Source of the DNA: Fictibacillus enclensis
GTDB taxonomy: Bacteria > Bacillota > Bacilli > Bacillales > Fictibacillaceae
Length of the DNA: 64,000 bases
NCBI RefSeq assembly: GCF_001457035.1
Contig: NZ_KQ758618.1
Coordinates: forward strand, 248,001-312,000
Direction of reading: 5' to 3'
Below the pieces are notes generated by a model. It did no database searches, had not been told where the DNA came from, and was given only the letters and a program-made list of their open reading frames with translations. Positions 22,191 to 24,713 of the stretch are shown piece after piece (position 1 is the stretch's first letter; every line of letters begins with the position of its first letter). The position numbers and the translations under genes were made by a program.

Positions 22191-22296
22191 AAATCACAAA
22201 TCCACCATCTACCACCTCCCCTCCAGCGACTAGCCCACTTTTTCATTTCACTTTTCCGCTCCAATGCCGTATACTCAGATACTAAAAGGCAAAGAA

Positions 22297-23187
22297 ATGG
22301 AGATTGGGCAAATGAATGAACAGGCACGAAACACGAATAAAGCGAGACTGCTGATCAGCTGTGGGGACCAGCCGGGAATTGTGGCGGCAGTATCACAGTT
22401 TTTATATGGCCAGGGAGCAAATATTGTGGAATCCAACCAGCATTCCACGGACCCGGAAGCGGGAATGTTCTTTATGCGCGTGGAGTTCGAAATCGATAAC
22501 CTGCACGAGCGGGCGGACGGGCTGAAACAAGCGTTTTCGAAAATCGCCTCCGAGTTTAACATGGACTGGCGGCTGTCACTGGCATCCAAACGAAAAAGGA
22601 CAGCCATTTTTGTTTCAAAAGAACCGCACTGTCTGCTTGAACTTTTATGGGAATACCAAAACGGGGATTTGGATGCAGATATTTCGCTTGTCATCAGCAA
22701 TCATGAAACCTCAAAAGGGTTGGTGGAGTCGCTAGGCATTCCGTTTTATTACATACCGGCGAACAAAGACATTCGCCAGGAAGTGGAGGAAAAACAGCTT
22801 CAGCTGCTGGCTGAGTATAACATTGAACTCATCATACTGGCGCGTTACATGCAGATTTTAACACCTAATTTTGTATCAAAACATCCGCACCGCATCATCA
22901 ACATTCATCATTCATTCCTGCCGGCTTTCATTGGGGCCAATCCGTATGAAAGAGCCTATAACCGGGGTGTGAAGCTGATTGGGGCAACGTCTCATTATGT
23001 AACGAATGATCTCGATGAAGGTCCAATTATCGAGCAGGGAGTTGAGCGCGTTAGCCACCACCATAATGCGGAGGATCTGAAGAAAATTGGCCGTTCGATC
23101 GAACGAAGTGTGCTGGCGCGTGCGGTAAACTGGCATCTGCAGGACCGTGTGCTCGTTCACGAAAACAAAACCATTGTTTTTAATTAA
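22297..23187 (+). CDS. purU: Formyltetrahydrofolate deformylase PurU
   Basis: PurU hydrolyses 10-formyl-THF to formate and THF. The 296-residue protein has an N-terminal ACT domain (ARLLISCGDQPGIVAAVSQFL) and a formyltransferase-like domain with the N-H-D catalytic set: Asn in RIINIHHSFLPAF, the following His, and Asp in DLDEGPIIEQ. It is nearly the B. subtilis length. ATG 22297 has AAAAGG seven bases before it; ATG 22312, with GGAG nine bases before it, is an equally plausible start. It ends 89 bases before the riboswitch of nupG. Confidence 0.93.
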   Translation: MEIGQMNEQARNTNKARLLISCGDQPGIVAAVSQFLYGQGANIVESNQHSTDPEAGMFFMRVEFEIDNLHERADGLKQAFSKIASEFNMDWRLSLASKRKRTAIFVSKEPHCLLELLWEYQNGDLDADISLVISNHETSKGLVESLGIPFYYIPANKDIRQEVEEKQLQLLAEYNIELIILARYMQILTPNFVSKHPHRIINIHHSFLPAFIGANPYERAYNRGVKLIGATSHYVTNDLDEGPIIEQGVERVSHHHNAEDLKKIGRSIERSVLARAVNWHLQDRVLVHENKTIVFN

Positions 23188-23276
23188 TTCAAAAAGTTTT
23201 TTAAAATAGGACTTTTTTCGCAGATATTGTCAAACCATGACGTATGTACTAAAATGACCATTATTAGCAAAGAATA

Positions 23277-23356
23277 ATCCTTGTATAGTATCAGTACAAT
23301 CGAATTCGGTCTGATAGTCTCTACCTGGCAGCCGTTAAATGCCGGACTACAAGGAA
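23277..23356 (+). ncRNA. Guanine-type purine riboswitch aptamer with atypical P2 loop
   Basis: P1 pairs CCTTGTA 23279-23285 with TACAAGG 23348-23354. J2/3 is GTCTCTACC at 23317-23325, P3 pairs GGCA 23327-23330 with TGCC 23340-23343 around a CCGTTAAA-type loop, and J3/1 is GGACTAC, with C at the specificity position (guanine rather than adenine). P2 (TATCAG/CTGATA) closes a 16-base loop instead of the usual seven-base GATATGG-like loop, so the canonical loop-loop contact looks absent. B. subtilis nupG also has a guanine riboswitch. Confidence 0.85.
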
Positions 23357-23432
23357 GTATGAATACATCAATGGAATGGTCACTTATCTTTGTTGGGAAA
23401 AAAACCTTTTTTCTCATATGGATAGACCCATT

Positions 23433-23489
23433 GCCCTTGCTTTCATGCTTTCTGTCCGGTGGACGGTGAGCAGGAAATAAGGGCTTTTT
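23433..23489 (+). terminator. Riboswitch expression-platform terminator
   Basis: GCCCTT at 23433-23438 pairs with AAGGGC at 23479-23484, with inner pairing CTTTC/GGAAA and a gtccggtggac hairpin, followed by TTTTTATA. This is the off-state hairpin 30 bases before the nupG start. Confidence 0.75.
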
Positions 23490-23519
23490 ATATACGGAAA
23501 AAAAGTGGGAGTGGTTGGT

Positions 23520-24713
23520 TTGTATTTTTTGATTAATCTGCTTGGCATCCTGGTTGTGGTTGGCGTTGTTTTTGCGTGTTCCCCAAACCGAAGAAATGTG
23601 AAATGGAAATCGATCGGCGTTTTGTTTGTTGTTGAGCTGCTGATTACGTGGTTTATGCTCGGAACGAAAATTGGTACGGCGATCATTGACCGGTTTGCGG
23701 CGTTTTTCTCCTGGCTCATTCAATGTGCAAATGACGGTACGGCGTTTGTTTTTCCATCCGTTATGGCGAACGAAAACGTTGATTTCTTCTTTAGTGCCTT
23801 GCTTCCTATTATTTTTGTTGTTACCTTTTTTGATATTCTTTCGTATTTCGGTATTTTAACGTGGATCATTGATAAGGTCGGCTGGGTCATTTCGAAAATT
23901 TCAGGTTTGCCAAAGCTTGAAAGTTTCTTCTCCATTCAGATGATGTTTCTCGGGAATACCGAAGCGCTTGCAGTTATCCGCCAGCAACTGGTGGTGCTTA
24001 AACAACACAGGCTTTTGACGTTCGGTTTGATGAGCATGAGCAGTATCAGCGGCTCTATTATCGGCGCGTACTTAACGATGGTGCCCGCAACCTATGTGTT
24101 TGCGGCGATTCCGCTTAACTGTCTGAACGCGCTGTTGCTTGCTAGTATTTTGCACCCGGTGGATGTATCGAAAGAGGAGGACGTGGTTTACGTTCCGCCG
24201 AAGGAAGAAAAGAAAGATTTCTTCTCCACCATTTCAAACAGTATGCTTGTTGGTATTCGCATGGTCATTGTCATTCTCGCCATGGTCATCGGATATGTGG
24301 CATTAACGTCTGCGGTAAACGGCATTCTCGGCTTTTTCATCCATGGTCTTACGATTCAAAAAATCTTCTCATTCATCTTCAGTCCGTTTGCGTTCCTTCT
24401 GGGGCTTCCTAAACATGATGCCATGTACGTGGCGAAGTTAATGGGGATTAAACTGGCAACCAATGAATTCGTGGCCATGATGGATTTGAAAACACAATTG
24501 AAATCACTCCCGCCGCACACCGTTGCGGTTGCCACAACCTTCTTAACCTCATTTGCGAACTTTAGTACGGTCGGTATGATTTATGGAACGTACAACTCCA
24601 TCCTCGGAGAAGAAAAGTCTGTGGTGATCGGTAAGAACGTTTGGAAACTGCTTGTGAGCGGAATGGCCGTATCACTATTGAGTGCGATGCTTGTTGGACT
24701 TTTTGTTTGGTAA
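23520..24713 (+). CDS. nupG: Nucleoside transporter NupG (CNT family)
   Basis: A concentrative nucleoside transporter of 397 residues with several membrane helices; B. subtilis NupG (YxjA) imports purine nucleosides such as guanosine. Hallmarks: FAFPSVMANE-like FVFPSVMANENVDFFFSALLPIIF, SFFSIQMMFLGNTEALAVIRQQL and SMSSISGSIIGAYLTMVPATYV. The start is taken as TTG 23520 (LYFLINLLG), matching the B. subtilis N-terminus MYFLLNL and following GGGAGTGG; GTG 23505 and 23511 are upstream options. Expression should fall when guanine binds the leader riboswitch. Confidence 0.92.
   Translation: MYFLINLLGILVVVGVVFACSPNRRNVKWKSIGVLFVVELLITWFMLGTKIGTAIIDRFAAFFSWLIQCANDGTAFVFPSVMANENVDFFFSALLPIIFVVTFFDILSYFGILTWIIDKVGWVISKISGLPKLESFFSIQMMFLGNTEALAVIRQQLVVLKQHRLLTFGLMSMSSISGSIIGAYLTMVPATYVFAAIPLNCLNALLLASILHPVDVSKEEDVVYVPPKEEKKDFFSTISNSMLVGIRMVIVILAMVIGYVALTSAVNGILGFFIHGLTIQKIFSFIFSPFAFLLGLPKHDAMYVAKLMGIKLATNEFVAMMDLKTQLKSLPPHTVAVATTFLTSFANFSTVGMIYGTYNSILGEEKSVVIGKNVWKLLVSGMAVSLLSAMLVGLFVW

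Follow-up and report, generated by a model that had tools for sequence, protein, structure and literature searches.

Guanine control of a nucleoside transporter gene has been described for Bacillus subtilis yxjA (nupG), an OFF switch that works through a central helix in which the P1 3' side takes part; its reporter was a C79U version responding to 2-aminopurine (PMC9756952). In purine aptamers, L2 docks on L3 through a pair of base quadruples, one joining G38-C60 to A33-A66 and the other G37-C61 to U34-A65 (PMC3764141), U34 being part of the upper quadruple (PMC3764141, PMC5480868). U34, G37, G38, C60, C61 and A65 are named as universally conserved (PMC3764141), the G37-C61 and G38-C60 pairs are reported as the most crucial for docking, with changes outside the quadruples mattering little (PMC5480868), and the contact as a whole is said to be highly conserved and to be required for binding weaker ligands (PMC3764141, PMC5480868). 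The purine riboswitch variants described differ in their joining regions (PMC9295807): where the guanine class has U51, 2'-dG-I and -II have C (PMC8872408), and xanthine-II combines U51G with insertions in J2/3 and J3/1 (PMC9295807).

We analysed a stretch of 64,000 nucleotides from Fictibacillus enclensis (contig NZ_KQ758618.1, positions 248,001 to 312,000; hereafter the window), in which a covariance model search with RF00167 gave a match at 23261-23369 on the plus strand (64.7 bits, E 5.1e-9; gathering score 37) with an insertion in L2. This confirmed a purine riboswitch aptamer 5' of a NupC/NupG-type transporter gene, and with GACUA in the alignment it bore out the preliminary description, which had placed a guanine-type aptamer with C74 before nupG and had called for such a search. 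The claim that P2 closes a 16-base loop containing cgaattcg also held, as six pairs plus the apical bases 23295-23310 (Table 1), and a search for a better alternative fold with a standard seven-base L2, which would have spoken against the long loop, found none. Position 23489, where the element was first said to end, is the last base of the terminator U-run. Folded alone, the aptamer reached -23.7 kcal/mol, equalled by 1 of 200 shuffles (z -2.66), and no shuffle of 200 was as good as the leader 23277-23500 (z -4.77).

Table 1. Features of the nupG leader and its surroundings, in window positions.
Feature	Position	Strand	Basis or remark
purU	22264-23187		upstream neighbour; the riboswitch lies between purU and the transporter gene
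Candidate sigma-70-like promoter, TTGTCA-17-TAAAAT	23227..23255	+	consensus scan, 10/12 matches
P1	23278-23285 / 23348-23355	+	RF00167 alignment and fold; aptamer core spans 23278..23355
J1/2, UAG	23286-23288	+	RF00167 alignment and fold
P2, 6 pairs, UAUCAG / CUGAUA	23289-23294 / 23311-23316	+	alignment, fold; near-identical P2 in nupG-type orthologs
Apical U-U mismatch on P2	23295/23310	+	canonical 7-pair frame
P2 apical bases, 16 nt, UACAAUCGAAUUCGGU	23295-23310	+	cgaattcg inside
Extended L2, 14 nt, ACAAUCGAAUUCGG	23296-23309	+	canonical 7-pair frame
CGG at L2 3' end, including docking pair G37-G38	23307-23309	+	GG in 9/9 distinct loops of at least 10 nt
J2/3, GUCUCUAC	23317..23324	+	sequence, alignment; G46, U47, U51 kept; C48 for usual U
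P3	23325-23330 / 23340-23345	+	alignment; P3 with L3 spans 23325..23345
L3, GCCGUUAAA	23331-23339	+	alignment
CCG in L3	23332-23334	+	complementary to L2 CGG
C74 in J3/1, guanine over adenine specificity	23347	+	GACUA in RF00167 alignment
Candidate antiterminator (central helix), 5' strand	23352..23363	+	overlaps P1 3' side; 12 pairs with 23442-23453
A/U-rich hairpin, GGGAAAAAAACCUUUUUUCUC	23395..23415	+	between aptamer and terminator; sequence; paired in leader fold
Candidate antiterminator, 3' strand	23442-23453	+	in 5' half of terminator
Intrinsic terminator: hairpin 23433-23484 and U-run 23485-23489	23433..23489	+	folds; 7 genus leaders and 9 others compared
Probable Shine-Dalgarno, GGGAGUGG	23507..23514	+	sequence; 5 nt 5' of UUG 23520
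CNT-family nucleoside transporter gene (NupC/NupG)	23520..24713	+	probable UUG start, by ortholog comparison

The aptamer shares with Guanine-I RF00167 the three-way junction, the pocket bases and the GG/CC docking bases. It differs in that L2 is doubled, U34 is off its usual place, and at the seventh pair P2 has a U-U and P3 a G-A mismatch. Where RF00167 has the trait of a seven-nucleotide L2 with U34, L2 here has 14 nt with A as its third base; since the cut-off was passed despite the insertion, we treat the seven-nucleotide loop as a usual, not a defining, trait. The score is the lowest among the six purine aptamers of the genome, of which four others were parsed with a 7-nt L2 and the fifth, L005, has no L2 insertion in the Rfam alignment. 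With yxjA the locus has in common the kind of gene, the aptamer fold, and a terminator; a candidate helix that would draw on the P1 3' side resembles the one described there (PMC9756952). With subtilis-group relatives, the yxjA sequence itself lying outside the loci compared, it shares a P2 starting xxUCAG and the apical U-U mismatch, which is common to 39 of 45 distinct nupG-type aptamers; unlike those loci, where L2 has 7 nt, it has a 14-nt L2, and C36 for U, A or G. In our reading, which we hold to be probable, it is a transcription-terminating guanine OFF riboswitch of a nucleoside importer, similar to yxjA, whose long L2 is a lineage expansion that is expected to dock, probably with a third pair. 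It is a modest loop variant, ordinary in kind, and for the genome the outcome is likewise ordinary, namely purine-controlled nucleoside uptake.

In the RF00167 alignment the pocket bases are intact (U22 at 23286, U47 at 23318, U51 at 23322 and C74 at 23347), and comparison of orthologous leaders finds the same pocket across genera. J1/2 and J2/3 carry G24 and C48 instead of the commoner A and U, C48 being found also in same-genome paralogs with 7-nt loops (L002, L003 and L004). The 2'-dG-I model RF01510 had no match at E<=10 anywhere in the genome, and the 2'-dG-II model RF03165 (cut-off 60 bits) gave five subthreshold genome loci of 39-45 bits, the window locus being absent. Guanine is thus the expected ligand, because U22, U47, U51 and C74 are kept, the 2'-dG models miss the locus, and C48 is shared with paralogs that have 7-nt loops. 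Covariation between positions 24 and 48 was considered and rejected: C48 is found together with G24 in the window and in L038, yet together with A24 in L033, L036 and L030.

The preliminary description had instead raised a different ligand of the 2'-deoxyguanosine type and had proposed covariance searches with the corresponding models; the window locus appeared in neither search, its contact bases are canonical, and the similarly placed yxjA is described as guanine-binding (PMC9756952). More broadly, the ligand could have changed to 2'-deoxyguanosine, guanosine, xanthine or another purine, with the loop as part of the change; this would accommodate the small departures at positions 24 and 48, the variants on record do alter joining regions (PMC9295807), and a nucleoside would be a sensible ligand for a gene whose product carries nucleosides. 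We regard such a change as highly improbable. U51 is kept, against C in 2'-dG-I and -II (PMC8872408), and membership in these two classes was rejected on that base and on the absence of the locus from both models. U51G and the J2/3 and J3/1 insertions that mark xanthine-II (PMC9295807) are lacking, and no J2/3 or J3/1 insertion as in the definitions given for xanthine-II and guanine-II (PMC9295807) was seen in the RF00167 alignment of the window. The C48 paralogs with 7-nt loops and the constancy of the pocket across genera in orthologous leaders argue the same way. The 2'-dG-III variant goes with a purine nucleoside hydrolase gene and departs from the guanine consensus in all three joining regions; the gene here encodes a transporter, and J3/1 is canonical. 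The locus has the three-stem architecture of 2'-dG-I, -II and -III, xanthine-II and guanine-II; those classes have changed joining regions (U51C, U51G, insertions), whereas here these are near-canonical and the distal loop is changed. A new ligand is therefore unlikely as judged from the sequence.

Another purine-type aptamer of the same genome, outside the window (L005:1501-1603; G000:C1:741871-741973), has J3/1 AUGCUA, with one inserted base, versus GACUA, and A at position 48. It lies 5' of an amidohydrolase gene assigned by NCBIfam to 5'-deoxyadenosine deaminase (722 bits, cut-off 522) and has the best subthreshold 2'-dG-II score of the genome (45.3 bits). As its joining regions are changed, L005 is a better candidate for an altered ligand than the window locus. 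Similar aptamers occur in L039 and L040, and L042 is an RF00167 match of equal length.

The switch precedes nupG in all seven Fictibacillus genomes analysed, with a near-identical P2 and an L2 of 11-14 nt ending CGG; the six distinct loops measure 11, 12, 12, 13, 14 and 14 nt, identical aptamers being counted once in the tallies of distinct aptamers. Among 60 other distinct purine aptamers parsed, L2 has 7 nt in 59 and 6 nt in one. The order was sampled evenly with 249 genomes, and 15 of them matched a pattern for an L2 of 10-17 nt ending GG; two of these, both Fictibacillus, were real by eye, the other 13 matches being 6- or 7-nt loops with a chance TATA upstream. Among 397 genomes of the order, 14 fitted a pattern built on the nupG-type P2, and four of these had an L2 of at least 10 nt, three from Fictibacillus and G725. 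The genus of G725 has a 10-nt L2 in five of its six genomes and an 8-nt L2 in the sixth; two of the six (G775 and G776) have loops identical to those of the Metabacillus kandeliae and M. mangrovi loci, and this second long-loop genus is probably Metabacillus. A class-wide pattern matched 2 of 398 genomes. For the order-wide pattern that in effect asks for an L2 of at least 18 nt, the loops among the matches listed were about 6-8 nt by eye, with TATA upstream. These long-loop patterns demand GG, GTNTCTACC and GACTA, so that their counts cover loops having all three and those without them escape.

For nupG loci in named genomes, a purine aptamer was found upstream in 48 of 66 (45 by the parser and three by Rfam, two of these among a further 20 loci). 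The remaining 18 (e.g. L080, L082, L083 and L084) showed no purine riboswitch in the available upstream DNA, which for two of them, L090 and L126, amounts to only 418 and 252 bases; these close NupG relatives may be unregulated or otherwise regulated. Close to the nupG locus of L118, from a metagenome-assembled Bacillota genome, a PreQ1 riboswitch (RF00522, 45.2 bits) was seen at L118:1967-2009 on the minus strand.

The NupG tree has 53 rows, L201, L202 and L203 being excluded as same-species or near copies judged by their loops. Every L2 parsed on one side of its deepest split has 7 nt; this side includes Priestia, the Bacillus subtilis and licheniformis groups, and part of Peribacillus and Psychrobacillus. 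Across the split, L2 is 6-9 nt long in the remaining Peribacillus and Psychrobacillus and in Neobacillus, Heyndrickxia, Gottfriedia and M. kandeliae, 10 nt long in Metabacillus and 11-14 nt long in Fictibacillus. The length of L2 therefore tracks the gene clade, not the genus name. The added length lies in the 5' and central portions of the loop, and in our reading the long L2 arose in this lineage by expansion of the segment without docking bases. We also weighed a decaying aptamer, with the loop drifting after docking and regulation had lost their importance in the lineage. Loop length and sequence do vary even within Fictibacillus, and the RF00167 score is the genome's lowest, but GG, CC, C74, U22, U47, U51, P1 and the terminator are kept in 7/7 Fictibacillus genomes while the loop letters change, and we regard decay as highly improbable.

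The bases most important for docking are present in the window (G37-G38 at 23308-23309 and C60-C61 at 23332-23333), and the GG of L2 and the CC of L3 are kept together in all seven Fictibacillus genomes. Among 38 distinct nupG-type aptamers found through the protein or RF00167, where GG was not required, GG occurs in 37 and CC in 38; this set omits L092, L116 and L118, which are nupG-linked and were detected by Rfam but missed by the parser. Adding loci from the patterns that require GG gives 44/45 and 45/45, the 45 being set by P2 (xxUCAG) and including L164, which has a 7-nt L2 and a P3 of another aptamer kind. The exception is the aptamer at about position 1083 of L121 (Bacillus sp. V59.32b), whose 6-nt L2, GUAUAG, ends in AG while the CC of L3 is kept, offering a natural test of docking loss. 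The preliminary description had allowed for a fold without loop docking; this is opposed by GG and CC, which are retained across nearly the whole range of loop lengths. Although the energy model pairs G37 inside L2 across the genus, we grade the absence of docking as unlikely. From the sequences, the long L2 most likely still docks.

The base before GG is C in 9/9 distinct loops of at least 10 nt, versus 0/36 nupG-type loops of 6-9 nt (7/7 long versus 0/31 short with pattern-found loci removed), and in none of the 59 canonical loops parsed. C36 does occur in some 7-nt loops too, as in the ACGG of L005 in the same genome and in a few of the order-wide pattern matches listed. U34 stands third in L2 in 59/59 canonical 7-nt loops, 15/16 nupG-type 7-nt loops, 5/16 8-nt loops and 0/12 loops of at least 9 nt, insertions making its register ambiguous; its absence from third place in all nine loops of at least 10 nt counts against our reading. 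In all nine, CGG at the end of L2 stands against CCG in L3; as C36 faces G62, the two could possibly form three pairs instead of base quadruples. Presented at the 3' end of L2, GG would face the 5'-terminal CC of L3. Docking is thus expected to remain, and a third pair C36-G62 would probably take the place of some of the non-canonical contacts.

On the NupG tree, the combination of long loop and C requires two changes, which well-supported branches force, and none of 200 bootstrap trees allowed a single change. We hypothesize, post hoc and from two events, which are few, that it was gained twice, or was gained and then lost in M. kandeliae, whose 8-nt loop has U. More tentatively, and with greater doubt than confidence, we propose that on one branch of the nupG riboswitches quadruple docking gave way to a simple kissing helix with two to three Watson-Crick pairs (GG-CC, then CGG-CCG). 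L2 would thereby have been free to grow from 7 to 14 nt while the ligand stayed the same, and C36 and loops of at least 10 nt would have arisen together twice, or arisen once and then been lost together. The natural series of loops of 6, 7, 8, 9, 10 and 11-14 nt, nearly all with GG/CC, provides a ready test of which parts of the contact guanine binding needs, and suggests that an odd distal loop alone is no sign of a ligand change. A literature search of mainly open-access text found no description of this L2 series and no paper linking Fictibacillus with a riboswitch.

L2 might instead fold on itself, in the window as an extension of P2 (AUCG-AAUU-CGGU), hiding G37-G38 and leaving guanine to be bound without docking, perhaps at lower affinity. 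For the window aptamer this fold has the lowest predicted energy, the secondary-structure ensemble giving pairing probabilities within L2 of 0.56 for C36, 0.93 for G37 and 0.62 for G38, and G37 is predicted to pair inside L2 at 0.46-0.99 across all seven Fictibacillus genomes. Since the energy model cannot weigh a loop-loop contact, competition between docking and self-pairing of L2 is a live possibility. The palindrome cgaattcg is present in the window and two sister genomes and absent from the other four Fictibacillus; a conserved mini-hairpin in L2 was rejected as a candidate because its core is found in 3/7 genomes. Likewise, the core CGAAUUCG of the self-folded form occurs in three of the seven, while the others (11-12 nt) keep CGG and lose its partner letters. 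For the four genomes without the palindrome the minimum-energy fold of L2 has one or two isolated pairs, or none, and three 10-nt loops of the second long-loop genus leave GG mostly free (0.09-0.28). Constant GG/CC with no shared hairpin fits the prediction from docking and not that from a self-folded L2, which we judge unlikely.

By analogy with yxjA, we infer an OFF mechanism through a central helix. When guanine is absent, the P1 3' strand together with the bases that follow would form a helix with the terminator's 5' half, and transcription would continue; guanine, pairing with C74 in the junction, would lock P1 and let the terminator form. Comparison shows the terminator to be recurrent, a terminator-like hairpin being predicted in 16/16 loci folded (the window and 15 others), and a simple terminator scan did not flag 23433-23489. 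In the window, the terminator stretch has a predicted energy of about -32 kcal/mol, compared with -16.0 kcal/mol for the central-helix duplex and -9.2 kcal/mol for the P1 strands alone. When 180 bases downstream were searched freely and the 5' strand was shuffled 300 times, 7 of 300 shuffles paired as well as the candidate central helix of the window; nine of the 16 loci, the window included, lay at 3-12 of 300, and the other seven at 24-91, with subtilis-group L138 at 91. In L200, pairing was better at another site. In places the pairing is kept through letter changes, as with AGGAAGUAUGAA and UUCAUGCUUUCU in the window and ACAGGGAAGUGUG and CACGCUUUUCUGU in F. macauensis. A hairpin similar to the A/U-rich one occurs in L036, and the other Fictibacillus have a different sequence there.

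The transporter protein matched Pfam Nucleos_tra2_N and Nucleos_tra2_C over their cut-offs, with Gate at 28.6 bits, just under 29.6, and the NCBIfam nupC subfamily at 429.5 bits, slightly below the cut-off of 442; the mechanical ORF start is 23505. The promoter candidate is weak, because the consensus scan found two sites in the region where shuffles yielded 1.3 on average. Elsewhere in the window, a tmRNA gene was identified at 589-949 (RF00023, 216 bits).
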